Below are positions 6,245 to 62,390 of a stretch of 64,000 nucleotides of DNA, piece by piece. The notes under the pieces were generated by a model, which saw only the letters and a program-made list of their open reading frames with translations, did not search any database and was not told the origin of the DNA. Origin of the DNA: Prorocentrum cordatum. Lineage: Eukaryota > Sar > Dinophyceae > Prorocentrales > Prorocentraceae. A program made the translations under genes and the position numbers. The stretch's first letter is position 1. Each line of letters starts with the position of its first letter. The DNA is taken from assembly GCA_963575745.1 (NCBI GenBank), contig CAUYUJ010000655.1, positions 47,033 through 111,032 of the forward strand. Reading direction: 5' to 3'.

Positions 6245-6319
6245 TCAACACGCGCGCCTCGGCCATCGGGAAAGGGAGGCGCGCGAAGGGAAGGGGCACG
6301 AAGAGGACACGAAGTTGGA

Positions 6320-6600
6320 AAAGGAAAAGGATGGGTGAGGAGGAGGAGGAGAAGGGAAAGACGGATGATAGGTTGATGCTTAGGATTCTGATTCTGGTTA
6401 CGGTTATGTTTATGATTATGATGGTGAAGGCGACCATGGTGATGATGATGATGACGACGAGGAGGAGGAGGACGAGGAAGAGGAGGATGTGGAAAAGAAG
6501 GAGAAACGAGGAAGAGAAGGAGGAGGAGGAGGAACAGGCCAAGCAGTGGGCAAGAGCAAGGCATCCGCCAAAACCAAGAGGAAAGGGCGAGGGGCAAGCT
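6320..6600 (+). repeat. purine-rich GGA/GATGAT low-complexity tract
   Basis: GAGGAGGAGGAG and GATGATGATGATGAC runs give long frames on both strands (K/R/E/M-rich on plus, P/H-rich on minus). These are compositional artefacts. Confidence 0.8.
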
Positions 6601-17440: not shown

Positions 17441-18040
17441 CATGTCGACCATGTCGGCACACCCCTCACACCTCTCGTGGCCTCGTCAGGAGCTGCACCG
17501 AAAGCCCCAGTGGCAGAGTCCGCATGGCGCCACCGCACCCATGTGGGGACACCCCTCACACGTTACGTGGCACCATAGGGAGCTCCACCGAAGGCCCCAG
17601 TGGCAGGGTCCGCATGGCGCCAACGCGCCCATCTCTGCACACCCCTCACACGTCTCGTGCCCTCATAGGGAGCTCCACCGCAGGCCCCAGTGGAAGGGTC
17701 CGCGGGGCGCCACCGCACCCATGTCGGCACACCCCTCACACGTTTAGTGTCCCCGTAGCGAGCTTCACCAAAGGCCCCAGTGGCAGGGTCCGCATGGCGC
17801 CAACGCACCACCCCTCACACGCTTCGTGGCCCCATACGGAGCTCCACCGAAGGCCCCCAGTGGCAGGGTCCGCATGACGCCACCGCGCCCATCTCTGCAT
17901 ACCCCTCACACGTTTCGTGGACCCATGGGGGGCTCCGCGGAAGGCCCCAGTGTCAGGTGTCGGGGCGCTCCTCACACGCTTCGTGGCCCCATAGGGAGCT
18001 CCACCGAAGGCCCCAGTGGCAGAGCCCGCATGGCGTACCC
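17440..18040 (+). repeat. 90-bp tandem array of the satellite family
   Basis: Six to seven units with CACACCCCTCACACG, TCGTGGCCCCATAGGGAGC and a tail variant GTCCGCATGGCGCCACCG. Same orientation as the arrays at 1, 2.1 and 27 kb. Confidence 0.9.
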
Positions 18041-18061
18041 GCGCACGATGTGTGTGTGTGT

Positions 18062-18119
18062 GTGTATGATTGTTTCTGCGCCCTGCCCGCAGCGACAGGG
18101 CGCAGAAACAATCATACAC
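18062..18119. repeat. perfect 24-bp inverted repeat (hairpin)
   Basis: Arms at 18062-18085 and 18096-18119 are exact reverse complements, each containing GATTGTTTCTGCGCCCTG or its complement. The loop is 10 nt (CCCGCAGCGA). A (GT)n tract precedes it and a (CA)n tract follows. A related half-site, GACAGGGCGTAGAA, lies near 18623. Confidence 0.85.
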
Positions 18120-18595
<476 letters not shown>

Positions 18596-18699
18596 TCTGG
18601 CGTCGCGGCCCTGCGCTCGGTGACAGGGCGTAGAAGGTCGGAAAACAGTGAGGCGCGCGAGTCTACGCGCGGCCGAGCGCTCAGACCATTCAGGGCCTC

Positions 18700-18982
18700 G
18701 CGAAAGCACACACACACACACACATTGGTCACGTACCAGAAGTATGCCGATAGTGCCACCATACGTATCCGGCGTTTCGCCATACACGCATAATACCGCA
18801 ATGTCATTGGCAAGTATCAATTCTCGGACGTCGAACAGGGCCACCACCAATGGTTGCCATCGTGGACCCTGGTGAGGGGTTTCTTGCATGTGGATGCGCA
18901 ACAGCGCAGCAGTATATCTGGTGCAATTAATTATGACCGCATCCGCGCTTAGCCGCTTCCAGTGCTTGTGCAAACATCCCAC
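18700..18982 (-). CDS. probable coding exon, unrecognised
   Basis: A minus-strand frame from 18982 reads KHWKRLSADAVIINCTRY, ALLRIHMQETPHQG, then LVVALFDVRELILANDIAVL and YGETPDTYGGTIGILLVRDQ, and then dissolves into the CA tract. The mix of hydrophobic strands and charged loops looks like real protein. No family was recognised and neither boundary is known. Confidence 0.35.
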
Positions 18983-19008
18983 CCACCCATCCGCAATTAG
19001 CTGGCAAA

Positions 19009-44566: not shown

Positions 44567-44568
44567 TA

Positions 44569-44600
44569 CCCTGAGGTCTAATCACTTCAAAAAATGAAGT
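44569..44600 (+). repeat. left terminal inverted repeat
   Basis: It begins CCCTGAGGTCTAATCACTTC and ends with GAAGT, so it contains its own small hairpin (ACTTC, A-rich loop, GAAGT). It matches the reverse complement of 62051-62082 at 24 of 32 positions; six of the eight differences are the loop (A-run versus T-run). The first 11 bases are identical. Confidence 0.75.
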
Positions 44601-45442
44601 GCAATATTTAACATTATGTTGCTTATGTTGTAAGCATGAACTGGCGTTGGCTCAAGTAATATTCGCCACAATGGCGTTGATGCTATATATCCATATGTTT
44701 CATTATTATATACATGTAATGGTATTATTATCGCACGCATTACACAATATAAGAGCACACGCACACACGTATACACGATATGGACATGAACGCAATGTCA
44801 GAGCAGCACGTTAGCATAACAAGGTGTTGAGGTGAAGCCATACCAGACAGCATCTCGGCATTCTACCACGCACCAGCCGCGAACGCGGCGGAGGATTGTG
44901 CTTTTCGGGGTTCCAGGGGGGGAGGTCCTCCGAAGAGGGGCGGGGGCGCGTCGTCGGCTCGCCGTGCCTCGCCGTCGGTTCAAACGAACCGGCGGAGCGC
45001 CACCGCGCCCCGCCACGAGGTGGCCGCGCGGCTTTCGCCGCCATGGCTGCCCAGGCCTTGCAGCCGCCGACGGCGCGAAGGGTCAACGACCGCTCCGCCC
45101 GCACTATCCCCTTCACTCCCCCCATTCCGCCTTCGAAAATCAAGGCGAAAGGGGGGGGGGGCGCAAAAACAACAGGCCATCCGAAACCGAGACGGAGGAG
45201 GGGAAAGAGGAAGGATGAGGAAGAAGGAGGAGAGAGCGGACAGAAAAGGAGGGCGATAACGGGGGAGGAGGAAGGAGGAAGAGGAAGAGGAGGAGGAAGG
45301 AGGAGGAAGGAGGAAGAGGGGGAGGAGGAGGAGGAGGAAAAGGAAGGAAGGAGGAGGAAGGAGGAGATGGAGAAAGGAGGACGAGGGGGAGGGAGGAGGA
45401 GAAGGGGGGAGAAGGAAGGAGGATGACGGAAAGCTGCCCAAG
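44601..45442. other. AT-rich subterminal region, then purine-rich tract
   Basis: 44601-44815 is AT-rich, with TATATA words and GTTGTAAGC (44628), which also occurs inverted near the right end (61991). 44820-45110 is GC-rich with unassignable open frames. 45180-45425 is a GGAGGA-rich tract that probably lies in the intron before the first exon recognised. Confidence 0.5.
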
Positions 45443-47948
45443 GCGGCGCCCCGCAGCAGCTGCAACGACGACGACGAGGCGCTGTACACGGTGTGGAGGC
45501 TCCACATCCGCGCAGTCGACGCGATCGACTACGCGACAAGCCAGAGCGGCAGGAAGGACAGCGACGTCATCAAATACCACGGGCTGCTCTTGAAGAGCAC
45601 ACGTAAGCTGGGGCACGCCAACGTGACGCAGCGGGCAGCGAAGGCTTGATGGGTGTTAGATAGAGGAAAGGCGGAGGAGAGGAGAAGGGTGGTGGAGAGG
45701 AAGGGAGGGAGATGGAGGAGGCGGTGGAGAGAGAAGAGGGGCGGAGGGAGGAGAACAGGCGGAGGGAGGAGAGGAGGGAGGAGAGAGACGAGGACCCCCT
45801 TCTCGTCCCTAGACTCTTTCCGAGTTTGATCCCTTAGATTTTTTTGTTGAGTTCGACCCTCTTCGAAAATCAAGATCCTTCGGATTGGAGGCATTCGATT
45901 CGGAACAGTTTCGGTGTGTTTTTTTGTTTATCTCCCGCCTGCCCAAGGCGGCGCTCTACAAGATCGCGTCCGACCACGAGGGGACCTGGCGGCTGTGCAG
46001 CCAACGAGGGGAGTGGGCTGACCAGAACGCCAGGAAGATCAGGGCCATGCTCGGCCACATACGCGACGCACTCACCGTGCGCGAGGGATTCAGGCTCGTG
46101 GGCACGGCAAGGAGGAGGGAGGCGATGAGAAGGAGGACGGGGAAGACGAGGAGAAAGAGGAGGTGCGTGCAGGGGGAGGTCGAGCAAGAGGAGGAGGAGG
46201 AGGAGGAGGAGGAGGAGGAGGAGGAGGAGGTAGAGGAGGTAGAGGAGGGGGTGGGAAGTGAAGAGGAGAGGAGGGGGCAGGAAGGAGAAAGAAAGCAATG
46301 AGACTTTTTTTTCGAAACGGAGCACCGCTCCAGACAGAGACCTCCAGTGGAATTCAAACGAAATCCATTGGAATTCTTATGGAACTCCAATGGAATTAAT
46401 GAGATTCCATTCGATTTCCCGTGGATTCAGACTGAATCCGATTGGATGTTCTGCCCCCGAGGCCGCCGAAGTGGGCCCAGGAGTTCGCCGCGGAGGCCAC
46501 GCCCGCGGCCGGCGCCGAGGAGGCAGGCGCTGCAGCCGAGGAGGGAGGCAGCGAGGACACCGCCGAGGAGGGAGGCGGCAAGGACGACGCAGAGGAGGGA
46601 GGCGGCGAGGACGACGCAGAGGACGGAGGCGGCGAGGACGACGCAGAGGAGGGAGGCGGCGAGGACGACGCCGAGGAGGGAGGCAGCGAGGACGCACCGC
46701 CGCTGGAGTTCTTCAACAATGCTGCCAAGAAGCACGGTTTGAAGGTCATTGCTCAAATGAGCGGCTTCCACCTCGGCTTCGACGAGGCCATGGTTTCGGC
46801 GTGGAGGCTGCCAGTTGACGCGAAGGGCTCCACGATGCCAGAGTACGTTCCTGCGCGTCCAGCGCCTGGCATCAAGGAGCTCAAGGCCACGTGGACCTCG
46901 GACGGCAAGAAGCTATCGTGGGTCATCCCGCACACGTTGGCGGAGGAGTTCGAGGAGACGCAGACGAAGAAGGGGACCAACGTGATTCAGGAGCTGCAGG
47001 GCAAGAACAAGGACGAGAAGTGGTCTTTGGCCTACGTTGACCACTGCAGGAAGGGCCGCTGGATGGTCATTTGGAAGCACGGTGCTGGTGGCAAAGCGCA
47101 GGTGCTCCAGATGGTGAACTACGGCCAGGAGCTCCCAGCAAAAGAGTGCCTCCTCAACGTGCTGAAGGGTCTGGCTTCAGGGAAGCTCGACAAGGCGATG
47201 GCCGAGGAGATCAAGAGGGACCACCTCAAGAACAACAAGAAGGACAAGTCCACTTCGGGGTCTGCGGCGGCGATCCAGGACAGCAGGCCTTATAGAATGA
47301 GGGAGGGGTAGGGGGCTGGGGGGTGGGAGACGAGGCTGTCGATGGAATCGCGATGGAATTTCGCGGCGGCGGCGATGGAATTGCGATGGGATTTCATCGG
47401 TGCCCCGTGGGATTCTCAGCGAGATCTTAAGTCTCATCCCCACCCCCTGCGCAGCCCCCATCCCTCTTTCATTTTCGCAGGACGGCAAGGAGAGCGGCGG
47501 GAAGACGCAGAAGGGCGGCCCTCGCGACGGCGGGTCTGGTGACGGAGGCGACGAGGGCGAGCCTAGCGACGTGCCTGCGAAGAGGGCAGCTGGGAGGGCC
47601 AAGGCGAAGGGAACGGCCACGGCGTTGAGTTTGGCAGCGACGACACCTGCGACGCCAGCCTCGAAGCCCGCGCAGGCAGAGCCCCAGTCAACGAAGAAGA
47701 GGGAGGCAGTGACAGCGACTGAGCCCAAGAGGAAGGCTGCGAAGAAGGCTGTGCAGGAATCTTCGCTGGCCGACGGGACGATCACCAAGCGGGCGAAGGT
47801 CGCGGTCGTGGAGGACAAGACTCAGATCGACGATCACAGGAGCGGCCAGCAGGGAGGCGTGAACGAGAGCCACGAGAAGAAGGAGATCGGCGGGGCCCTC
47901 GACGACGAGTACGGCATCCCGTCGTCGCTCCTCGATGTGAGGTGCTAG
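45443..47948 (+). CDS. multi-exon gene, unrecognised protein with acidic repeat
   Basis: Four plus-strand exons are inferred. Exon 1, 45443-45643 (DEALYTVWRLHIRAVDAIDY, HGLLLKSTRKLGHANVTQRA). Exon 2, 45948 to about 46120 (YKIASDHEGTWRLCSQRGEW, IRAMLGHIRDALTVREG). Exon 3, about 46470-47278, with five to six acidic EEGGGEDDA repeats, then FFNNAAKKHGLKVIAQMSGF, WTSDGKKLSWVIPHTLAEEF and KGRWMVIWKHGAGGKAQVLQ. Exon 4, 47481-47948, Lys/Ala-rich (AKRAAGRAKAKGTATALSL) with stop. Junctions 1/2 and 3/4 keep frame with a GC donor (45644) and a GA donor (47279). The basic tail and acidic repeat suggest a nucleic-acid or chromatin partner, but I know no family. The 5' end is not found. It may be joined to the next gene. 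Confidence 0.55.
47338..47420 (+). repeat. intronic GATGGAATCGC-type repeat
   Basis: GATGGAATCGCGATGGAATT and GCGATGGAATTGCGATGGGA occur in the intron between exons 3 and 4 of the preceding gene. The same words appear in introns and spacers at 46345-46445, 52260-52420, 53280-53440, 59195-59340 and 60770-60900. Confidence 0.7.
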
Positions 47949-48653
47949 ATTGGCCACGAGCCGATCAGGTGGGGTCGAATCTATATGAACATAGATTCGC
48001 ATGTCATTCCTGGCGCCTGTGCATCGTGCGCCAGGGTCTGGGCCTTGAAAAATCAAAACGTCAGGTCGAATGACGACGGTCATGCTGCCAATCCCAACTA
48101 ACAGTTCGCGCGGCCACGGGTGCAAAGATATCAGCATCTCGCAGGGGCGCGAAGTACGTTACCTCGAAGCAAGACGCTTGCAAGGTTCGAGCCACATACG
48201 CAATGGCAACTGTGAGGAGGTATGAGGACGAGGTGGAGGGCTGGAAGGGAGGGGGTCGGGAGGGCGAAACGAGACGTCAGGGGGCAGGGGGTAGGAGGGG
48301 GAAGGGGTCTGGCGGCAAGTCGAAGGCGCAGCAATGCGCTGGCGTCGAGTCGGAGCCTGGCGCCGAGGAGGGGGAGGAGTTGTGCTGCGTCCCTAGGGGC
48401 AGCACTTCCTCGGCCCCTCTCTCACCTTCCTTCTCCCCTCCCTCTCCTCCCTCTCCTCCCTCTCCTACCTCTCCTACCTCTCCCCATCCTCCTCCTCCGA
48501 AGTACACTCCTCCTTCTCATCCTTCTCCATGCCAGCCCCTGGACGTCCATGGGGGGGCCCATCCAATTCTTTGGCGTCGCCACAGCCATTCGGGCCCGAA
48601 GGGTTGACAGGGCTCGGACTCGGCTTGCACCAGGGCCCAGGAGTTCAGAATCG

Positions 48654-51600
48654 ATGGCGCCTCGGCAGCGCAACACGCCGATCGCCAAGGCGCTGGCGAG
48701 AGGCTCGTGGAAGCCCAGGAAGCGGTCCAAGCAGGATGCGCAACGCCCACTGTCGGAGGATGACACGCTGGCGACCTCGGCCACCATGCGTGACGACTCC
48801 ACGCAGCTCCTCGACGGGGAAGAGGTCGAGGTGGTTGAGAGTGCTGAGGAGTCGAGGGGCGAGCCGTCTGGTATTGATTGGGGTACCAGCGCCCGCGAGG
48901 AGGGCGTCGCTAGCGAGGGCAATGCAGATGCCGACAGTGACGAAGCTGAGGGCTCCGACGCCCCTACTGAACAGCCGTTTCCACAGCATGCTGATGATGA
49001 AGATCAGACCCTCGAGGAAAGTGCTCGGACGGCTCAGGAGGAGGCGGCGCGCGAGGCTGAGGAGCGCGATGCCGAGGAGGCTGCGGTCCAGGAGAGCCTG
49101 CGCGACGCTGAGAAGCAATCAGAGCTCGCGGCTGAGGAGCAGCGCCAGCTTGAGACCGCCCTTGCCGCATCCCAGCGGACCGCTGGTCGCCGCGGTCCTC
49201 CGAGCCCGACCGACGACGCGCAGCCGCCCGCTTGGCAAGAGCCGTCCATGGGCAGCAAGGACTGCTACCGCGATGGGCGGCCGCAGCCTTCGACGCCGCC
49301 AGCTGGGAATCAGCGGCTCGGCCTGAGCCAGGAGGCGCTGGCTCGTTTCGACAAGAATGGCAACGAGAGCCAGGTCTTCTCCATTTCCTCTGAGAGCGAG
49401 CGGCTCGGCCTGAGCCAGGAGGCGAGTCAGCTGGCTGCTCAGCCCTTGCTGACGGCCTCGGACCTCCAGACGCCGCCGCCCTTGCTGCCCGCGCAGCCGC
49501 CAGCCGCTGCGCAGCGGGGCCGCGTCGCTGGAGAGCAGGAGGCCACATCCCTCATTATCCTCGTCTTCGTCGCCTTTCTCGTTTCCCGAAGCTTCATCCC
49601 GCTTCCATCCTCCTCCTCCTCCTCCTCTCATGTTCTGTCCTCTCCTACTCCTGGCTCTTCCATTCGATTCCTCATGATCCTTCCGCTGTCATGTGCCACC
49701 CTTCCGCTCGCCACCCGCTTCTCCTGCGCATGCCCCGCCCCAGCAAAAAGCGAGGCCAGCCAGTCGCAGGCCATGATGCTTCAGAGCATGATGATGCAGA
49801 TCGCTAACATGATGGGCAGCATGCAGGAATCTCATCTCACAATACCCAACCTCGCCTCTCTTCATGCTCCTCCTCCTCCTCCCCCCCTCCTCGTCTTCCA
49901 CTTCCTTTCTCCTTCATCCTCCCCTAACTCCGTGTCCTACGTCACCCCTCCTCCTCCTCCTCCTCCTCCTCCTCCTCCTCCTCCTCCTCCTCCTCCTCCT
50001 CCTCTTCCTCCTCCTCCTCCTCCTCCTCCCCCGCCCCTGCCCGTCCCAAGTGCCTCAGGGAAGGAGGATGAGGAGGGGGATGGGGGAAGGGGAAGAACAG
50101 GAGGGGGAGGGTGAGGAGGTGAGGAGGAGGAGAAGGATGAGGGGGAGAAGGAGGAGGACATGCCATTCTCGCCCTCTTTGTTCTCTCCGCCAGGACGCCG
50201 AGGCCGTCAAGGCCAACCTCATGAGCATGGCCGCGCAGGCTGCTGCTGGGGCAGGCGCGCAGCCCGTGCCGACGCTGGGAGAGGACAAGGCGCTAACCTT
50301 CCTTCTGCTCCTCCCCTGCCCCTCCCTCCCCGCCTTGGATCTGGTCGGCGGTCGCGGTGGTTCCGGCAGCCCTGGCTCGGTGGATATGGTCGGTGGTCGG
50401 TGGTCCTGGCGGGGGGGGGAGGCGGGAGAGAAGAGGACAAGGAAGGATTGCGCAGGCAGCAGCAGGCGCTGCGACAGCGCAGCAGGAGACGGCAGCGGCG
50501 CATCAGGAGGCGGCAGCTCAGCAGAAGAAGCAGCAGGCGCAGCAGGCGGCGCTGCAGGAGGCGGCAGCTCAGCAGAAGAAGCAGCGGGCGCAGCAGGCGG
50601 CGCAGCAGGTGGCGGCAGCTCAGCCCAAGAAGAGGCAGGCGGCGCGGCAGGCGGCGCAGCAGGAGGCGGCCCCAAGGGAGGACCCAGAGGCGGAGACCGT
50701 GGGCTACGAGGCGGACGCCGAGACGGTGCCAGCACCAGACATAAGCGGCACCTGGCCTACTGGAAGTAAAATGGTGGAGGCAGCTCTCGGCACGCGTGGG
50801 GAGCTCGGGAACCAGCCTTTGCAGACGCCACCGAAGACCAAGAAGGCAACGCTGGACGAGGTGGACGCACTCAAGGCGAACTTCATCGGCAAGCTGAGCG
50901 CGCCAGATGTCACCTTCGGCGAGCGCGACGAGTTCGACCTGTCCCAGAAGGTGTACGAGATCTTCACTGGCCCTGTGTTCGAGCGCCTTCTCGAGCTCAA
51001 GGGCACGCCGCGCGAGACGTCGGCGTCGTGGCCGACAGATCCTTCGTCGTGGGGGCCTGCGTTCGACGAGAAGAAGCACGTTGAGACGCTCAAGCCCCAC
51101 GAGAGAAAGGAGTTCGAGTTCTGGTCGACGCTTGCTTCCCAGGGATTCTGGATCAGTACTGACGGGAAGAAGGAGGCCGCCCAGGCGGGGAGGTGGCAGC
51201 GTGCGATTGCTGCGGACTCCAAGCTGAAAGCCGACTACGCGCAGGTTTCGGGGGACGTGGCGAAGGCCGAGTTTCGGAGAAAGTGGGCGATTGAGCAGCA
51301 CGGCAAGAAGGTGAAGAAGTTCACCAAGACGACGGAGGATCGGAGGACCCACTGGAAGGACAGCCAGTACTTGAGCATCGGGCGGATCGCCCATCTCGAG
51401 GGCAACGGCAGGGCTGGCTGGCTGGCGGTACTTCGGCGGAAGCAACTATTTACCTCTCTGTGTGCCCCTGGTGAAACCATTGAACCCTCCAGGAATCAAA
51501 CGTCGTTTCCGAAAAAAAAAAAAAGCGCCTTCCACTGAGGTGTCGCCAGCCACCCAGCGTAGACGTTACCCAGGCAACAAAGTATATGTGGCGCTGCATG

Positions 51601-51941
51601 TCGATGGGCCCGCCGTGGGTGACCTACGACGAGTGGACGGAGACGGTGAAGGGGTTGTACGTCTCGTTCGGGCTCAGGGAGACTTTCAGCACGGCGTGGG
51701 AGGAGCATACCACGTGGGGGGAGCAGGACGTCCACGGGCACCAAAACGCTTGGCACGGGAGAGGGAGGGGGGTGGGGGAGGAGGAAGAGGAGGAGGAGGA
51801 GGAGGAAGAGGAGGGGAGGAGGAGAAACAGATGGAGGAGCAGGAGGAGAGGGGGCAGGAATACAAGGGAGAAGGAGAGGATATAGAGAACAAGGGGATGG
51901 AAGTTGGGAGGAAGGAGTAGGTGGAATGGGATAGCGGATAT

Positions 51942-51990
<49 letters not shown>

Positions 51991-52988
51991 GGTCGAGGGA
52001 GCAAGGGGGAGGGGTGACGAGGTAGGGTGCGAGGATGCACATTTTCGCTCCGAAGGATTCGCCTGGCCAGCACTCGCTGGCTGCCGCGGCGCAGGCCGCG
52101 CTGCCGGCGGCAGTGGCGCAGCCGACGCCAGTGGCGCCAGCCGCGGCCACGCCGAAGGCAGCGCCAGCCACGCCAGCTGCGGCGCCAGTCGCTGTGCAGG
52201 AGGCGGAGGGGGAGACGGCGGCGCCAGAGACGCCAGTGCCAGCAGCTGCGGCCCGAGCGATGGAATAGCGATGGAAATCCTCGGCCCGAGCGATGGAATC
52301 GCGATGGAATCGCGATGGAATCATGATGAAATCGCGATGGAATCGCGATGGAAATGCGTTGGAATCGCGATTCCATCGCTATTCCATCGCTATTCCATCG
52401 CTCGGGCCGAGGATTTCCATAGCTTTCCAACGCGTCGGCAAGGGCAGCAGGAAGAGGACGGCTGCCACCAGGGCGGCAGGCGCTGATTACGCTGCGGGCC
52501 CCGCTGACGCCGACGCCAAGGCGCCGAAGGAGAAGACGCCTCTCCAGGCCAAGATGGTGTCTGCCCGCAAGGTGATCGGCAGGTACGCTGGCGTCCTGGC
52601 CACGGGGACCACGGTGTACGACACCACGCAGAGCGACAGCTGGTACAAGAAGTGGGCTACGACTGACGTGGTGAAGCCTCTCTTTGATGCCATCAACAAG
52701 GTCAAGATGATGGTCGCAGACGACGCGAACCTCAGCTCGGCCTTGACGGAGAACCTCACTAAGTACCAGAAGCGCGTCGGAGAGAGAATCGCGCTCAAGG
52801 TGCTGGATGACATCGTGAACACTCTCAACCCTGCGCTGGATACGATCGAGGAAGAGGTGAGCACCATCATCGGGTTCGCCGAAGTGAAGCGCCAGCAGGA
52901 GAAGAAGATGGCCGAGAAGGCTGCGGCGGCCAACGGCAGCGAGCCCACCCCGAAGAAGCAGCGGATCATTGGCAAGGCGTCCAAGTAA
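48654..52988 (+). CDS. multi-exon gene, dinoflagellate-type protein of unknown function
   Basis: Exons: 48654 to about 49545 (ATG; basic start RGSWKPRKRSKQDA; acidic, then coiled-coil ESARTAQEEAAREAEERDAE; two RLGLSQEA repeats); about 49744-49826 (QAMMLQSMMMQIANMMGSMQ); 50194-50289; 50456-51427 (three QEAAAQQKKQQAQQAA-like repeats; ADYAQVSGDVAKAEFRRKWA, DSQYLSIGRIAHLEGNG); 51574 to about 51755 (MGPPWVTYDEWTETVKGLYV, EEHTTWGEQDV); 52056-52250 (Ala/Pro-rich); 52443-52988 (KVIGRYAGVLATGTTVYD, TTDVVKPLFDAINKVKMMVA, ALDTIEEEVSTIIGFAEVK; stop). Donors are GA (49827), GC (50290, 52251) and GT (51428), all with AG acceptors and kept phase. The layout resembles large repeated dinoflagellate families whose function I do not know. 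No catalytic motif is visible. Confidence 0.6.
52271..52420. repeat. intronic element with 29-bp perfect inverted repeat
   Basis: Arms 52271-52299 and 52392-52420 are exact reverse complements (ATGGAAATCCTCGGCCCGAG and so on). The centre is made of GCGATGGAATC repeats. It fills nearly all of the 192-nt GC-AG intron 52251-52442. An intron made of an inverted-repeat element is what an introner would look like. Confidence 0.8.
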
Positions 52989-53837
52989 ATCGCTGTCGAT
53001 TTCAAGGACGTCCTGGGGCTTGGCTGCATCAGGGTATTTGTCAGCCAGGAATCAATGGTGGCCGTGCGGGCATGCGGCTGATTGAATCGTGCCCGAGCTC
53101 TCGCTCGAGCGAATGCACCGCGCCACCATCTCTCAGTGTGGAAAGGAGGGGAAGAGGATGCAGAAACAGACGGGGGAGGAGTGGGAGGAGGCCTTAGACA
53201 CTGAAACCCACAACATCTGACGAAAAATGCATCGAGCACCATGAAAATCACTCTGGGATCAGCTGTCTGGGCGCAAACGTACCGATGGAATCCCGATGGA
53301 ATCCCGGTGGAATCGTACCGATGGAATGCCGATGGAATCGCCGTTTTACCTGTGATTTCTCATGTAAAACTACCGATGGAATCATCCGTATAGAAAATGG
53401 CGTCCGGTGGAATACCGGTGGAATGCCGATGGAACCGATTTTGAGCTGACCCATGAGCATCCATGCGTTGAAACGGCGGGTATCTTGCCCACTTGTGGAG
53501 ACAAGTGACGTTCTCGTGGGTTCGACCGCATTTTTGCTCAGATGTTCTGCCGACGAGATGGCGCTCGGGCACTAGTGTGGCATCTTTGACAGCAGAGCGT
53601 GGTACGAGGGCGGCTGGTAACGCGTTGCGCGTTGCTGCAGCCAGTATTTCAGCCTTCGTCCACGGCATGTCGGCCTCCCGTGGCAATTCATGGAGGCCAG
53701 CTGCGCCAAATAGGGATGAGGGGCAGGGGGAGGGGGAGGAGGGGGAGGAGGAGGAGTAGGAGGAGGAGGAGTAGGAGGAGGAGGAGGGAGAGGCGGAGGA
53801 GGAGGAGGGGAATGAGGAGGAAGAGGATGAGGATGAG

Positions 53838-53869
<32 letters not shown>

Positions 53870-54563
53870 GGGGTGGGGATGGCAGAGGATGAGGAGGAAA
53901 CGCAGAGAAAGAGAGAGAGAGAGAGAGAGAGAGTGAGAGAGAGGGGGGGAGTAGGGCAAAGAAAGATGACGGATGATGAGGAGGACGGCGGCAGCAGCAG
54001 TAGTTCGGACATTCTGTCAACACAAGTTTCATGAAAAGAGGCACGCGGCGGCGCGGAGGCTGTCCCCGAACACGTCGTGGCACGAGCTCGGTCCAACTGT
54101 CGTCCTCGGGGGGAAGCGAGTGCTGACGCAACGGCCGAGTCTGGTGATACTGCCCATCTCCCTCTCGCGCCAGCACCGCCCTGTCATCTCGTGCTGCGTC
54201 TATTTCTCCAAGGTCCATTCAGTTCCCTCCTGCATCGCTCTTCTGCCGACCGACCCCCTCTGCACTCGCGCCCTCTACCCCCAAAGTGGCCAAGAGTTCG
54301 GGACTGCAATGCGAGGTAGGTGAACTTTCAGCGGCCTCGAGAGCGCCGCGCTAACCGTCGGGGGCGGGGATGGGTGAGGTGATGGCCCGCCAAACGACAA
54401 CGAAGGGTGAGCGCATGATCAAGATGATTGCTGCCAACCGTGAGAGGGGACGCCACGCGCTTCCCCACCCGTCATTTCCACTCCTCTCCTCGCCCCCTCC
54501 CCCCACTACCCCTCACACCCTGCTCCTCATAGTGCCTCGCTGCCTGCCCCACTTCCTCACCGA
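52989..54563. other. spacer with GGAATCCCGATGG repeats and ambiguous exon-like pieces
   Basis: 53278-53445 holds seven or more CGATGGAATC(C/G) words. 53590-53770 on minus reads MPWTKAEILAAATRNALPAA and PERHLVGRTSEQKCGRTH, which could be an exon. 53735-53960 is GGA/GA-rich. 54030-54140 is biased in two frames on opposite strands. None is assignable. Confidence 0.35.
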
Positions 54564-54584
54564 CCTTAGCCATTTTGGCTCACG
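54564..54584 (+). other. dinoflagellate spliced-leader relic
   Basis: The 21 bases match the known dinoflagellate spliced leader at 19 positions by my count, including TAGCCATTTTGGCTCA without a break. The transposase ATG lies 16 bases further on. This is the expected trace of a trans-spliced mRNA that was reverse-transcribed and inserted into the genome. Confidence 0.8.
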
Positions 54585-54600
54585 CTTGGGCTGACTCGCC

Positions 54601-57160
54601 ATGCGACAGCCACAATATCGTTTCGGCGATGGCAGTACCTCGCTGCGAGCTGATGCGTCGGAGAGGGCGGCAGGCGCAGCACTTCTGACGCAACTGCTAG
54701 AATTGTATGGATCTGCACGTCTAACAGCCAAACAATTTTGTCGGCTATGCAGCTTGTGCGAACAATCGGGCGTCAAAGGGGCTTGCTTTTCAAGATACGC
54801 CAGGGGCGCCGACCTGCAATCAGGAAAGTATCAAGAACACCTTGATCGGGTCCTCCCTGCGCCGAGCCACCTCTATGACGTGGGAGTGCCGCAGAATGTA
54901 AATCGAGGGCCCCATCGCCGCGTTCGGGCAGTGCCTGTTAAGCTGATATACGAGACATTGTCTGACGAGATCCACAGCGACGAGAAGTCGCTCAAGCTGC
55001 TGCGGGCGCCTGAAGACGAGCGAGATGAGTGCATATTAGACTTGCCAGTTTACAAGGATCACATACTGGTGAAGCAAGCCATCGAGGCTGGGAACGAACT
55101 GCCACTCCCAATTGCACTCTACGTCGACGGCGTCTCCTTCTCTCAGCAGGCGGCTGGGCGTTCGGACTCGGTCACGGGTTGGTGGGGAATCAACTTACTG
55201 ACGAACACACGACATCTAATCGCAACGTTGCGCCACTCTGATGAGTGCACCTGCGGGTGCAGGGGGTGGTGCAGCATCCATCCAATTCTTTCAACGATAT
55301 CATGGCAACTGCACGCCCTGGCTGACGGCAAGCGGCCACCGCTCACGCACACGGGAACGCCATGGCCAGTTGGTCAAGAACCTGCAGTTGCGGAGCTGGG
55401 TTTTTCTGCATGTGTACTCTACGTGAAAGGGGACTGGTGCGAACATTCCAGGACGCTCGGCCTCGCGGGGCCCAACCAGTTACACAATCCCTGCCAGTTC
55501 TGCCATTTAGCCAAGGACGAGCTGCACAGTTTCAACCGCCTCCTTTCTACAAGCACTGGGCCACCATGGCCGCTCAGGGAGGTTGGGGACTACGATAAGG
55601 CAATCGGGAAATGCGAATTCACCCTCACGCTGCACTCGGCAGCGGACAAACACAAACTATGTAACGTCCTGCGCTGGATGAGACCAGTTGGAAGCAAGAA
55701 AGTTTCTGGGATCCGAACTCGCGGGATTTCGCTCGACGTCGAGATCGGTGGCGTGAAGCTGATCGCAGGAGACAGGCTAGAACCTTCACGCGACGTGCCA
55801 GATATAGGTGACCTGACTGGAATTTCATACCCATGTGATCTCAAATTCTGGAGAGCGCGTCTTGGATTAGGCGGACACCCAATGGATGCGGTGCACCACA
55901 GGAACCCGATATTTGATATTTCAATTGGCATTTGCCCAGAGCTGTCGCTTGCCATCGACAGCATGCACTGCTTATACCTCGGAGTAGCGCAGCGTTGGGT
56001 GAGCGCCGTCATCTGGCGCATATTGCTCATGAACTTGTACGAACACGCTGGCACCCAGAAACACGTGGTGGAGGTCGGGCTTCGGAGCCTTACCGCTGAC
56101 CTGCGCCGCTGGCAGCAGGAACAAGGAGTGCCCCACGGCAACTGGGTCCGCGCCCTGACTCCCAAGATGATTGGGAAGACTCGCGGCTGCTCGTTCCAGT
56201 GCCCCCACCACCCTGGGGCGCCCATCAAGCTGAAAGCCGCGGAGTCGACTTTGGTCCTTGATTTCCTCATGGATCGCATCGAGGGCTTTGGCGGACATGA
56301 GGCTCTCGGAGGACCGATCATTGGCGCTGGCAGAGCACTCCAGCAATTGCTGAACTCTTGCCGCGAGGTCATGTTCAACGTCTCCGAGGGAAACAGGTTT
56401 CGCATGATGGAGGCGGTCGACATACACATCAGGTGCTGCGATGCCGCGGGCGTCGCACTCACGCCCAAGCACCACTTGATGTGCCATATGGTTGAGAGGA
56501 CCACTTTTTTGCTGTCGCTGTTGCGCTCGTCAATCCTCCCCTCCCTGCACTCCCGCCCCACCTGCCCGCCACCCTTGCCCCTCCTCCCCCACCCCATCCA
56601 TATTCGCCCCCCTCCACCCTCGCAACTCCACTGCAATCCATTGTATGCCGCTCTGTCTCTAATCCCCCTGGCGCTGGCGGCGGGTCCTCGGGAGTTGTTG
56701 CTGTCGTTGCTTTGGGATCTTTGAAATCCGCGAGCCCGGTGGATCGGGCGCCCAGCTGGCGAGGTTCACTCCAGGAGGGGTTGGCGAGGGAGGAGAGAGA
56801 GGGGGAGCGGGAAGGGATAGGGGAAACGCGGAGGAGGAGGAGGATGAAAAATGAGACCCCGAAGATTGAAGGGGAAACCAGAAAAGACGGTATAGTTTCA
56901 CAGGTTCCAGCATCAGCAGCATGAGAACGAGTTCAAGAGAGAGAAACAACATCCCCAGGATTGGTTACCACGGCAGCCCCAAGGCCTACAACACATTTAC
57001 AGACGAAACGCTAAACATCCTCCTGAGGGACATCGCCAAATACGCTCATCGCAGCACCTTTGAGCGTCGAGTGTGGTCCTTGGTTGAGCTCTCTTCCTGT
57101 TTGAGATTGTCCCCTTACTTGCCGTACAAGGAATGCTTACCTCTTGTGTCTGGGCATTAG
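54601..57160 (+). CDS. Tnp2/CACTA-like transposase
   Basis: Exon 1 (54601-56498) is an uninterrupted frame of about 630 codons from an ATG 16 nt after the spliced-leader relic. It shows a DDE/DDD-type RNase H fold signature: ALYVDGVSF (Asp176), LYVKGDWCEHSRTLGL (Asp278), a CQFC Cys pair (298/301), and LAIDSMHCLYLGVAQ (Asp453), which is the D-x-M-H-x-x-x-L-G motif of Tnp2-like transposases. KHHLMCHMVER ends the exon. A GA-AG intron of about 445 nt with GAGAG at both edges follows. Exon 2 (about 56944-57160) resumes in frame with NNIPRIGYHGSPKAYNTF, TDETLNILLRDIAKYAH and RSTFERRVWSLVEL. The frame past 56499 into 56724 is intron. Transposases of this kind cut DNA at terminal inverted repeats. 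The core looks intact; the exact third acidic residue is uncertain. Confidence 0.65.
56499..56943 (+). other. inferred GA-AG intron flanked by GAGAG
   Basis: GTTGAGAG at 56491-56498 precedes the intron, and AAGAGAG (56937-56943) ends it. Joining after either GAGAG gives M-V-E-R-N-N in frame. The inside is C-rich at the 5' side and purine-rich at the 3' side, unlike the exons. Confidence 0.5.
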
Positions 57161-58855
57161 CTGTATCAGGGATGCTGGCAATCGTGGCTGAATCAGCGCC
57201 AACGCCCGAATATGAACCTGCTAAGATATGGGCGTGTGGTCGAGCCAGATCGCTGGGATGTCTCGGCAAAACATTGCAATTGCGAGATGCTGCCGACAGC
57301 GCCAACCTGATATTAACAGCCGCAGATGAATTCATGAGAATTTCGAAAATTGGAATGCCTCGGTCTGTCAACTTCCTTGAGCTTTTCTCTGGGAACTCGG
57401 AGACCTCCAGGCTCATCATCGACAAGTTTGACGGCGTGTCATACTCGTTTGATCGGGAGCACTTCGAATATCAGGATGCGTGCAGGCTGGACGGCATGCT
57501 ATATGTTCTCTGCATCGTATGTTGCATTGCGGCAGGGGGGTGCGTCTTCATCAGCCCTCAATGCTCAACATGGATCAACCTGAGCAGGCATCATACACGG
57601 AAAGGGGGTGGAAACGCCAGCTTACCATCACAGCCCCCATTTCCGATTGGGACCCTTTGTTTTTTTTGTTTTCAACTGGGGCCCCACAGTCGGGCAAAGG
57701 TGAATGATAGGAGGCGGATGGGGGGATCGCAACAGGGGGGGGGAGGAGGAGGGGGAGGCTCGGGTAGGATGCGAAAAGGCAAGGGGAGAGGTGGCGAAGG
57801 AGCCCATGGGGGCCCTGAGAGGAGAAGAAGAGGGCGGGATGGAAAAAGGTGGATGGAGGGATGAGGTAGATCGGCATAACAGACTCAAGCGACGCCCGAA
57901 GGAGATCGCTGGATAACACGTCTGGGAACGTCGACAGACTCGATGTGGCAGAAGCCAATCACGTGGCAGCATTCGTGTCACTGGGCGAAGGACCCCCCCC
58001 CCCACCCACCCACCACCACCACCGCCACCCCACGCGCAAAGTGAGCTCGACGGAATCATTAGCACGCCCTGCCCAAGGTTTTTGATCTCCCTGGGATGTC
58101 TGTTGGATCGCAGCTCGCGCCCCGAGGCCAACGCTGGCCATGGAAACAGGGGGTCGGGGGGGGGGGGGGGGGGCGGCCTTGCGTCGCCGTCGGGTCGGGC
58201 CGCCTCCGCTCCCTCAACAGCTTCCTGCTCTCATTCACCTCGCCCTCCTCCACCTCCCCTCCTCCACCTCCCCTCCTCCGCCTCCTCCTCATCCTCATCT
58301 TCCTCACCTCCTCTGCCCACCGCCTCCACCCACCTCCTCGTGTCAGTCGAGTCCTCCCTCCTTCTCATCGTCTGTTTGTTTCTCGTGGTGCGTATCTCCA
58401 GGTCATACGTCATTGTTGTCGCGAAGACCCGCGGCATCCATGTCTTCGTGGAGCAGCCGCTCAACTCCCTTATGTACCAGCACGCCGTTTTAAAGAAGGC
58501 GCTCGCAACGGCTGCCGCCACTCGTATCACCACATATTTGGGCGCTTTTGGTGGGCTTTCAGTTAAGCCAGTTGAGCTTTACACGACGTTCCCACTCGAG
58601 CCTGATATGCTGGACAGTTTGCGGCGCCCCATGAAAGATGCCAAGGGGCCTGGACTCTCTGGCAAGCGCAAGGCGAAATTGCATTGGGGTAGTGACACAA
58701 AGAAACCCAGGACAGGCACGTGGGGCTCGAAGTGGGTGAATTTCGACAAGTCTGCCCTGAGGGATACCCAGCAGTACCCACATGATTTTTGCAAGCTGAC
58801 TGCGCGCATCGTTTCCCATTTTGCTGGCCTCCGCTTGTTTCGCAATTCCGAATAG
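57133..58855 (+). CDS. divergent cytosine-C5-methyltransferase-like protein
   Basis: Three exons are inferred: about 57133-57600, 57883 to about 57975 and 58402-58855. SVNFLELFSGNSETSRLIID with YSFDREHFEYQDACRLDG is a class I SAM-binding start (motif I, F-x-G-x). FISPQCSTWINLSRHHTR sits where C5 methyltransferases have the P-C motif IV; here it is P-Q-C. Exon 2 reads RRRSLDNTSGNVDRLDVAEA and NHVAAFV. Exon 3 reads VVAKTRGIHVFVEQPLNSLM (like motif VI, E-N-V, here E-Q-P), TTYLGAFGGLSVKPVEL and a basic tail GKRKAKLHWGSDTKK, then TAG. There is no clear target-recognition domain. The sequence suggests a methyltransferase fold; DNA as substrate is inference. The true start is uncertain, as the frame from 57133 overlaps the transposase stop. 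Confidence 0.55.
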
Positions 58856-59190
58856 CTGAGTGCGTGGCTAAGTGCAACTTTCAACTGCGTGCAATCATGC
58901 GCGCTATTAGCGAGCATCGTCGCTCACGTGGCTGGCGGCGCGTTTCGTTTGGCAGCGCCTGGTTTGAACTGTGTGCAATCGTCATTTGGACGCATGCTCG
59001 CGCGATGATGGTCCTACCCACCCTCCTCCTCGCCTCCATCATGTAACTCATGTCTTGCCCCTACAACCTCAGAACATACCTGTGCCGTCCTCGTCATCGT
59101 CACCTTCTCCATCTCTCCACTCACGTCCACGTGGGAATCTTGAGAATCCCTGTCTCGGCCATCGCCTCGAGAGGGCGTGGGAATGGCCCC
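58856..59190. other. no confident gene
   Basis: Open frames continue from the upstream gene on plus, with CTCC-rich stretches near 59015-59115. Probably 3' untranslated sequence and spacer. Confidence 0.35.
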
Positions 59191-59194
59191 GCGC

Positions 59195-59400
59195 TGATTC
59201 CACCGCGATTCCAACGCGCCGCCTCGCGAATTCCAGCGACATTCCATCGCAGCGTGCTCCGAACGATCGCCCGCTCGAGCGAACGGGTGGGGCGTCAGGA
59301 GCAAGCTGCGAGATGGGATCGGGATGGAATTCGCGAAGCTGCGCTTTGGGCTCGCGCCCCGTGAAACTGGCTGGCGACAGGCCGCCATTCTGGTCGGGCA
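59195..59400. repeat. dispersed inverted-repeat element, copy 1
   Basis: GATTCCACCGCGATTCCAAC, CGCGAATTCCAGCGACATTC, a GCTCGAGCGAACG core, GATGGAATTCGCGAAGCTGC, then GGGCTCGCGCCCCGTGAAAC. The left ATTCCA(T/C)CGC words face right-hand GATGGAATTCGC words, so the element can fold on itself. The second copy is at 60770-60960. Confidence 0.65.
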
Positions 59401-60290
59401 CGGGCCCCGCAGGGCCGCGCGGTTTCAAGGCCCGATGACCCGCAGCGTTTTGCCAGCTTCGCACCACCTTTATCGAAGTCAGGGTGGCGGCGAGGAAGAG
59501 GATATCGGCCCGAATGACGTAGCAGATGACGAGGGCACGCTGGGGGGAATGAAACCAAACACGACGTGCTAGACAACGAGGCTGAGGAGGCTGAGGAGGA
59601 CAGGGGGAGCAAAGGCGACCAGCCAGAGCGATGCGTGAAGTTTGGAGAGGAGGCTAGGAGGAGGCGGCGAAGGAAGAGGATGAGGAGGAGAGGGGCAACT
59701 CAGAGGATGTAGAAGGTTCTGACAGACAAGAACAGAGAAGGAGCAGGAGGAGGAGGAGGAAGAGGAGGGATCAGACCCAGACGAGTCGGACGACACGTAC
59801 GGCAATAGATCAGTCACGGACGCACCTTCTGAAGTCGTGCCGTCGCTTTTGAGGGCTGAATTCAGGCAGTGGCAAGCTCGGAGGCGGTAGAAGCAGGCAG
59901 AGAGCGCAAAGCCCTGCACGCCTTCGAAGTTAATGAGAGGAGGAGGAATATCAGGAACGACGAGGAGGACGAGAAGGCATTGGATCGGCCCCCGTTCGAG
60001 TGGCCCGAGGCACGTCGCTGCCCTCCCGAAAATTGGCCAGCTGGCCGCGCGACGCAGTTTGCGAAACATCGCTGCACTGAAGCGTCTCTGATTGGGCTCA
60101 GTCCAAGAATGCGGCATCGCTCACGCCCCCCCCCCCCCTCTCTTCGCAGTCGCCGCCGCCGCCGCCATCGGAGGATTCAAAGCGAGTGAGACGCAGCCGA
60201 GTAGGGGGGGGGGGCATGGAAGGGAGGAGGGCAGAGTAAGAGAGAGGAGGAGGGGGAGGAAAGGGGGGGAGGGGCGGAGGGGAGAGGGGG
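59401..60290. other. no confident gene
   Basis: GGA- and GAGGA-rich stretches alternate with unique sequence. A plus frame near 59869-60110 (NERRRNIRNDEEDEKALDRP, PPENWPAGRATQFAKHRC) and the minus frames are not clearly coding. Confidence 0.3.
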
Positions 60291-60299
60291 GCGAACGCG

Positions 60300-60314
60300 A
60301 CGAGAAAGGACGGA

Positions 60315-60356
<42 letters not shown>

Positions 60357-60520
60357 CAGAAGAAAGCGAGGCCCGTCCAAGACAGCAGGCAACGGCATAA
60401 TCACAAGCAGAAGCAAGCATAAAGACAGACACACAGACAGAGAGACAGACAGACAGACACAGACAGACAGACAGACAGACAGGCAGACGGACACACAGAC
60501 GGACAGACGGACATGCCGAA
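60300..60520 (+). repeat. (GA)n and (CAGA)n microsatellites
   Basis: (GA)n at 60318-60350, then (CAGA)n with CACACAGA and CGGACAGA variants to about 60515. Confidence 0.9.
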
Positions 60521-60769
60521 AGATTGAGAGTGAGAGAAACAGAGGCGTCGGATGGCGCCCCAGACCCCAGCCTGATTTCCCCGTGAATCGTTGCTCGTGG
60601 CCTGCCCGCGGCTGCTCGCGGCTGGCGCAAGGTTCTTTGCCCCCTGCCACGGACGACGCGTGCAGAGGGGGAGGGGGGGCAGGGGGAAGGGGTGGTGGAA
60701 CGGGGACAGGAGGAGGGGTGAGGAGCAGGGGGAGGGGGGGAGGGGGACTTGGGGACCTCGCACAGACTC

Positions 60770-60960
60770 CATCGCGATTTCAACGATCCACCTTGCGAAT
60801 TCCAATGTGATTCCATCGCGGCTCTCCCCGACCGCCCCGTCGCTCGAACGAACGAGCAGGATTCAGGCCAAGGGCGAGCGGCGATGGAATCGCAATGGGA
60901 TCTCCGAGACGGCGCGTTGGACTCGCGTCCGGTGAACGTGGTAAATCTGGAGGCGCCCGA
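60770..60960. repeat. dispersed inverted-repeat element, copy 2
   Basis: CATCGCGATTTCAACGATCC, TTGCGAATTCCAATGTGATT, CGCTCGAACGAACGAGC core, GCGATGGAATCGCAATGGGA, then GGACTCGCGTCCGGTGAACG. The order of words is the same as in 59195-59400, so these are two copies of one mobile or introner-like element. Confidence 0.65.
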
Positions 60961-61679
60961 TAGGTCGGGACAGGCCCACGGGAAACTCTTATATAAACAG
61001 GCTGCAGCCATTCCGCTGGCCCCATCTTGGGAGCTCGAACCTTGGGGACCCTGGGAACTTTGAGGGCCTTGGGGGCCTTGGGGGCCAGAATATTTTCAGC
61101 GTCTGTTTAGACAGCATACACGCGGTGCAAAACATCGGGCGTAAAACTGCGTCGCGCGAACCTGGCGGAAACGAAAATCATATGATCGTCAATCCTCCTC
61201 CACCTCAACCTCAACATCCTCCTCTCCGTCCTCCCTTCCCCTTGCCCTCCTCCCCGTTCCTCTCCCACCTCCGCCTCGCATCTTTGCCTCCTCCTCCATG
61301 CCTTCGCCCGCCAAGTTCTGGATATGCTTGCTCGTCGATGTATTTCCCGTTCGTTCCTTCTCGCCACCTCCGCCTGCGCGTTTCCCTCGTCGGATCCGTT
61401 GTGTCCTTGATGGTTGCTCCTTGCGCGCGGGCGCGGGCGTTGGCAATGGCGCGGGCCCATGGCTGCATGGGCCCGTGTTCGATCGGGTGGTTTCATGCGC
61501 GTGGGAAGCTCCATCTGGTGCCGCGCATTTCTCGCAGCGTTCGGCGGCCTTTGTTTGGCGAGCTGCGTCGGACCTCTTTTCGCAGCGTTCCGCGGCCTTT
61601 GTATCGCGAGCTGCGCCCCTTGCGTGTTTGTTGCTTCTCGCGCGCAACTGCCGCATTTATCGTTTACCGCGAAACTGTA
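60961..61679. other. no confident gene; CTCC-rich and duplicated GCAGCGTTC words
   Basis: CTTGGG-like words at 61027-61090 and C/T-rich DNA at 61195-61300. A duplicated stretch CGCAGCGTTC(G/C)(G/C)CGGCC lies at 61531 and 61581. No frame is clearly favoured before 61680. Confidence 0.35.
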
Positions 61680-61826
61680 GTGCTACCTGGGGTGCTGATT
61701 GCGAGGCCGCGTGAAGTGAAACGGCAGTTCAAACACTTCGAACGCCGCCGAATACCAGGTTTAACAACAAGGGAAGTAATGAACAAACGTCGAAATATGT
61801 TTCGCGAAATATCCAGCATAAACTAA
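61676..61826 (+). CDS. terminal exon, unrecognised
   Basis: After a possible acceptor GAAACTGTAG, the plus frame reads LPGVLIARPREVKRQFKHFE, RRRIPGLTTREVMNKRRNMF and REISSIN before TAA (61824-61826). It is basic and looks like real protein, but it is too short to name. Codon use is less G/C-biased than the other genes. It is the last coding-like piece inside the right terminal repeat. Confidence 0.35.
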
Positions 61827-62050
61827 CACCAAGGGGAACGAGCTGTCTTGGAGTCGATGTGAGCCTTCTTGGATGCGGCGCGTGAGCGTTTGACAGTTTT
61901 ACACGCGCGCGTGCACTAAACAACCGCACTCGCCCAATATACGCAACATAACGTCATTTCTGTAATTGCTGTGTTATTAGAATGAAGTTGGCTTACAACG
62001 CCCCAAGATAAATAAAGTTATACCTATTATGATGTTAGCATATAACTGCA

Positions 62051-62082
62051 ACTTCAAAAAAAGAAGTTATCAGACCTCAGGG
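62051..62082 (-). repeat. right terminal inverted repeat
   Basis: Read on minus it begins CCCTGAGGTCTGATAACTTC and ends with GAAGT. TA follows on plus (62083-62084), mirroring TA before the left repeat. AT-rich DNA inside, G-rich DNA outside. Confidence 0.75.
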
Positions 62083-62194
62083 TAGGGGGGGGGCGGCAAG
62101 CGAGTGCCCCGACAGGCTGGCGACGGACCATAACGACGGAGCGGCCCCGATGTTTCTGCATCCTGGAGCCGTCTCGGGGGCCCCGTGGTCGTCG

Positions 62195-62235
62195 ATCGTC
62201 TGTGGTGGTGGTGGTCGTCGTCGGTCGTCCGTCGT

Positions 62236-62318
<83 letters not shown>

Positions 62319-62390
62319 TTCGTCGTCGTCGTCGTCGTCGTGGTCGTGGTCGCGGTCGTGGTCGTCGTCGTCGAAGATGTCTCCAACGCG
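62195..62390 (+). repeat. (GTC)n trinucleotide array
   Basis: Nearly pure TCGTCGTCG from 62230 to 62340, with GGTCGTGG ends. All long frames here are artefacts. Confidence 0.95.

Follow-up and report, generated by a model that had tools for sequence, protein, structure and literature searches.

We analyzed a window of 64,000 nucleotides from the dinoflagellate Prorocentrum cordatum (assembly GCA_963575745.1, contig CAUYUJ010000655.1, positions 47,033 to 111,032), in which positions 44569 to 62082 form an element of 17,514 bp that begins with CCCTGAGGTCT and ends with AGACCTCAGGG. All of its recognized genes lie on the plus strand and comprise three conserved open reading frames (ORF_A, ORF_C, and ORF_D), a transposase, and a methyltransferase-like gene (Table 1). 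As had been proposed from the window's sequence in an original prediction of one giant transposon with terminal inverted repeats (TIRs), the first 11 bases of the two ends are identical, 24 of 32 positions match overall, TA adjoins both ends, and the GC content changes at each end from 0.64-0.72 outside to 0.32-0.40 inside. No other TA-flanked inverted pair of 11-mers in the whole window is separated by more than 300 bases, and a pair this good arose in none of 40 first-order Markov sequences modelled on the window. Each terminus has CCCTGAGGTCT and continues with RATMACTTC and a short stem containing GAAGT. The terminal 400 bp of the two ends, checked for subterminal repeats, have few words in common. 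A long GTC triplet repeat lies directly outside the right end (window positions 62200-62350).

To place this element in its genome, we searched the 4.13-Gb assembly (21,875 contigs; the CCMP1329 genome paper gives 4.15 Gb, 22,724 scaffolds, and 59.7% GC [PMC10666404]) with the left 334 bp. The search returned three short and nine long matches, including the window copy, and all nine long ones begin at the terminus or at most 2 bases outside it. When the sequences of the eight further copies were compared, allowing up to three mismatches per end, they showed the same terminal base next to differing flanks. Both ends could be located in seven of the nine copies, with lengths of 17,514 to 18,599 bp; aligned end to end by pieces, they are 93-99.5% identical. 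The flanking 2 bp agree in six of these seven (TA, GA, TT, GT, GT, and CC) and disagree in C21543 (GA/GT), and a related copy, C21266, has its ends 17,534 bp apart and an AA duplication. The TA that had been taken for a fixed target is thus peculiar to the window copy. Some scaffolds appear to be chimeric or recombined, because C20068, C20193, and C21543 have a right flank in common and C20193 and C14705 a left flank; C20193 is one of the six copies with an agreeing pair. In C655, C13786, C11112, C20068, and C14273, all left and right flanks are distinct and each copy carries its own matching 2-bp duplication. The copy in C20068 also reveals an empty site: it sits in a 122-bp tandem repeat whose neighboring intact units cross the insertion point with a single GT, whereas the element is bordered by GT on both sides, the sequence being otherwise that of the intact units save for one adjacent G-to-A difference.

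The exact pattern CCCTGAGGTCTNATNACTTC occurs at 17 sites across the genome, compared with none for a reversed control. These sites fall on 12 contigs, of which 10 have transposase matches (including a further copy, C15908), C21266 has a methyltransferase match and no listed transposase, and C13343 holds roughly its first half, with the remainder of the element missing. If the termini merely belonged to a short element scattered through the genome, such elements should end at these sites; we found none at any of the 17 exact sites, a pattern that more diverged termini would escape. In C14705, the ends are 34.5 kb apart and the contig leaves the element sequence at a GA repeat; the copies in C13343 and C14705 (loci L017, L018, L023, and L024) both stop following the element partway along it. 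Farther along C13343, at a distance of about 8.7-10.5 kb, lies an oppositely oriented transposase that is 30% identical.

Measured against the majority sequence across about 17,300 sites, five of the seven full copies show 29-63 differences, C20193 shows 119, and C14273 shows 202. The family has moved recently. Changes within the family appear neutral. Stops or length changes affect transposase exon 1 in one of six copies, methyltransferase exon 1 in two of six (at the same place), ORF_D in one of six, and ORF_C in five of seven (frame-changing length differences relative to the window), and the conserved part of ORF_A has frame-changing differences in C14273 and C13343. Among the singleton differences of the seven full copies, transitions from A:T to G:C (85 A>G and 91 T>C, 176 in all) outnumber those from G:C to A:T (39 G>A and 20 C>T, 59 in all), with both strands alike, whereas the usual mutation bias runs in the opposite direction. 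Counted over copies, 35 of 154 A>G differences fall at CAC, a context that makes up 248 of 3,966 A sites. The excess could stem from hydroxymethyluracil mutagenesis, gene conversion, or base-calling at modified T; in a small look at a second family, it was weak (10 against 9).

Table 1. Features of the element and its flanks in the window
Feature	Positions	Strand	Remarks
2-bp target-site duplication (TA), left	44567..44568	.	2-bp duplication seen on other copies too
Left terminal inverted repeat	44569..44600	+	11 bp exact, then stem ACTTC-N6-TGAAGT; other left ends begin at the same base
ORF_A, conserved element protein	46436..47308	+	Putative start; conserved from about 46796 onward; no match in Pfam
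ORF_C, conserved element protein	50297..51535	+	Conserved part about 50770-51470
ORF_D, conserved element protein	52269..52985	+	Conserved part about 52540-52900
Transposase, main exon	54601..56499	+	3' end approximate; D178, D280, C300xxC303, HxxxH
Transposase, last exon	56947..57160	+	Final acidic residue (FTDETLN); ends with stop codon at 57158-57160; 3' splice site placed by homology
Methyltransferase-like gene, exon 1	57133..57600	+	Motifs ELFSG, SPQCST
Methyltransferase-like gene, middle exon	57900..57983	+	Approximate
Methyltransferase-like gene, last exon	58406..58855	+	Motifs VEQPLNS and GAFGG..KP; runs to the stop codon; approximate 5' end
Right terminal inverted repeat	62051..62082	-	Also located on other copies
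2-bp target-site duplication (TA), right	62083..62084	.	Read in window

Next, we asked what kind of enzyme the transposase is (residues are numbered on a 709-amino-acid ORF beginning at 54595). Its predicted structure finds its best match in RAG1/ProtoRAG/Transib, at about 11% identity and with low TM-scores, and shows the RAG1/Transib-type fold that characterizes the CMCT clade. Taking D280 rather than D455 as the second aspartate, which is our choice, a C(2)C and an H(3-4)H motif lie between it and the last E. The prediction supports a RAG1/Transib/CACTA catalytic fold with its residues. Among 31 family members searched, none had a Pfam transposase, CACTA, or Tnp2 match; the families expected for CACTA/EnSpm transposases are Transposase_21/24. 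Strict CACTA/EnSpm elements end in CACTA/CACTG, whereas the termini here are CCC..GGG and thus also lack the CA..TG ends of the CMCT clade. The 2-bp duplication falls within the range of both CACTA/EnSpm (2-3 bp) and the CMCT clade (2-5 bp). In the work that describes this clade, duplications of 2-3 bp are given for CACTA/EnSpm and Plavaka, CxxC and H(3-4)H are placed between the second D and the last E, and CA..TG termini hold in most cases, not all (Kojima 2025, PMC12730594). The label "Tnp2/CACTA-like" consequently fits the predicted fold and the motifs, which place the transposase within a RAG1/Transib/CACTA clade, and is inapt as a strict family name, given the missing Pfam match and the non-CACTA termini.

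Is the methyltransferase-like gene cargo, as had been suggested, or does it belong to the element? Of 34,842 first-look transposase candidates, 63 places were scored, and 59 of them are followed on the same strand, at no more than 20 kb, by the methyltransferase-like gene (at no more than 3.6 kb in 57). Linkage holds at 50 of the 54 places below 90% identity; the places without it are C16896, C12091, C21104, and C16075. Conversely, the last exon of the methyltransferase-like gene matches 150 scored places, about 91 of which have no listed transposase. We fetched 11 relatives, and the 10 chosen from linked places all contain the transposase tail and both large methyltransferase-like exons; L038, a methyltransferase-like place with no listed transposase, yielded only the last exon within the 1.6 kb taken. 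The gene is present as predicted, but it is not incidental cargo: it belongs to a module that recurs beside transposases just 40-57% identical.

The same holds upstream. Homologs of ORF_A, ORF_C, and ORF_D (38-42%, 36%, and 28% identity) precede a 55%-identical transposase with order and strand kept, in L042 and L040, which are copies from a single family and whose ORF_C stretches each hold a stop; the giant size therefore derives at least partly from conserved genes. A P. cordatum predicted protein from NCBI, P0031, matches ORF_A at 28%. Close to the putative start of ORF_A, the window has 2 bases (46457-46458) that are lacking there or within a few bases in eight other copies. Minisatellite runs of the GGAATC/CGATGGAATC type occur at several places between 46300 and 61000, reading FHRDSIAIPS or RWNCVGIAL in translation, and also in the 55%-identical family (L042, about 6311-6476). 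Elsewhere in the window, positions 17501-19000 show strong C and A skew.

The ends, the variable 2-bp duplications, the empty site, the near-identical copies, and the gene order A-C-D-transposase-methyltransferase are all read from the sequences themselves. Together with the predicted fold and residues of the transposase, they lead us to regard the element, with a probability of about 0.85, as a recently inserted copy of a dinoflagellate TIR DNA transposon of about 17.5 kb with a RAG1/CACTA-type transposase and a methyltransferase-like partner. From the fold, residues, ends, and 2-bp duplications, we infer that the transposase would cut the element out at its CCCTGAGG ends and join it to a target staggered by 2 bp, as RAG1/CACTA enzymes do. 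The element provides P. cordatum with a DNA transposon family that has moved recently and has precisely defined ends, an empty site, and enzymes of its own, and it widens the RAG1/CACTA clade to a group unrecognized by the sequence libraries searched. In predicted shape, the transposase is related to the enzyme that shuffles human antibody genes.

What the second protein does is less certain. Its ELFSG-like, Cys, and EQP motifs are conserved, one relative (P0032) matches the DNA methyltransferase family phrog_757 over nearly the whole protein (E value 1.9e-6; 2 of 10 members match), and the ratio of nonsynonymous to synonymous substitutions (dN/dS) is low, at about 0.17 (exon 1) and 0.29 (last exon) between the window and L039 and at 0.19 and 0.20 between L031 and L032, the remaining pairs having a dS of 1.7 or more or being saturated. 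The protein likely methylates DNA. Linkage, overlap, and selection suggest that it serves transposition, and it may do so by marking new or excised copies, to control transposition or to escape host surveillance. That it is a DNA methyltransferase acting on the element's own DNA, made from the transposase's transcription unit via an internal start site, we propose only tentatively, at slightly less than even odds. With a DNA methyltransferase-like gene as a core gene of a DNA transposon, the reason for which mobile elements carry DNA-modifying enzymes becomes directly testable.

Several observations weigh against a methyltransferase and would fit a degenerate Rossmann-fold partner for DNA binding or regulation (TnpA-like), possibly tethered to a membrane through its hydrophobic N terminus. 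None of 10 members searched matches the DNA C5-methyltransferase family PF00145, no convincing Pfam or NCBIfam match emerged (the top NCBIfam hit, in a single member at 0.0015, is to an unrelated dehydrogenase), and one family has lost the Cys position. The N terminus is hydrophobic within the first 24 residues in all 10 proteins tested, with 12-residue Kyte-Doolittle maxima of 1.3-2.7, which is unexpected in a DNA methyltransferase that acts in the nucleus; this set comprises window positions 57133-57200, eight relatives (L029-L034, L036, and L039), and protein P0033, two of the ten being near-identical and L035 and L037 being left out. No solved-structure match was found for the protein. Against such a partner stand the phrog_757 match, the conserved motifs, and the low dN/dS, and we consider it rather unlikely. 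The hydrophobic stretch resembles a signal peptide. P0033, a EukProt entry labelled Pyramimonas, is 96.8% identical to the P. cordatum locus L032 and is probably a cross-contamination; if its data set is transcriptome-based, this would hint that the gene is transcribed.

Another possibility concerns how the protein is made. The methyltransferase-like ATG precedes the transposase stop codon by 25 nt and is in the -1 frame, giving a 28-nt overlap if used, and in 9 of 11 loci (the window plus 10) the -1 frame is open across that stop; in L035 the frame is broken, and L037 is in +1. This constancy might reflect a single fused polyprotein produced by programmed -1 frameshifting. Yet an ATG in the new frame occurs at -24 or -27 in 7 of the 11 loci, which frameshifting would not need, making the fusion an unlikely reading. 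With an internal start, translation could begin within the transposase's last exon through trans-splicing just before the ATG or through re-initiation; by eye, an AG lies at most 3 nt before the ATG in the window, L039, L029, L034, L031, and the equivalent in L036, and not in L030 and L032.

A strict CACTA/EnSpm element, grown giant through simple repeats and captured host genes with the methyltransferase-like gene and other ORFs hitch-hiking, would agree with the 2-bp duplications, the CxxC/HxxxH motifs, the varying copy lengths, and the breaks of the alignment at a few places. We judge it improbable: the ends and the absent Pfam match speak against the family, and recent cargo would not stay linked at nearly all scored transposase places, nor would ORFs A, C, and D keep their order in the 55%-identical family. 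That a single locus was multiplied during assembly to give the copies, as the shared flanks might suggest, has next to no probability and is refuted for the family by the five copies with distinct flanks and by C21266, each with its own matching duplication.

Going beyond the transposon with a methyltransferase-like partner, it is tempting to speculate that these elements form an undescribed RAG1-related superfamily in which a DNA methyltransferase, started inside the transposase gene and possibly delivered by its signal peptide-like N terminus, is an obligate partner of transposition. This extension is doubtful; if it is true, such elements would make up a large class of mobile sequences in the genomes of free-living dinoflagellates. 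Among the titles and abstract openings listed from the open-licence literature, none describes a dinoflagellate transposon of the CACTA- or RAG1-like type that carries a methyltransferase.

Among known systems, RAG1/ProtoRAG/Transib is the best structural match and has the same series of residues, in which a D is followed at about 20 residues by CxxC and then by HxxxH and E. It differs in its 5-bp target duplication, against 2 bp here, in its second gene, and in sharing only about 11% identity. Plant Tnp2 has a similar motif order. CACTA/EnSpm and Plavaka have in common with our element the 2-3 bp duplications and the placement of the CxxC and H(3-4)H motifs, which come after the second D and before the last E; our element departs from them in its CCCTGAGG termini (not CA..TG), its lack of a Pfam match, and its multigene module with a methyltransferase-like gene. 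Dinoflagellate introner elements are likewise DNA-transposon-like with inverted repeats and occur in the same species, but they make introns. In Symbiodinium, LINE and DIRS retrotransposons carry PF00145 DNA methyltransferases under purifying selection (PMC5890265), a parallel in pairing a dinoflagellate mobile element with a DNA methyltransferase(-like) gene under such selection, whereas our element is of the cut-and-paste type and its enzyme goes undetected by PF00145. Finally, TET/JBP enzymes occur in fungal DNA transposons, including Kyakuja, Dileera, Zisupton, and Plavaka (PMC12730594), and likewise place a DNA-modification enzyme next to a transposase. There, however, the enzyme is a dioxygenase rather than a methyltransferase, and the Kyakuja, Dileera, and Zisupton members make duplications of 7-8 bp, which, with 2 bp here, sets our element outside that group.

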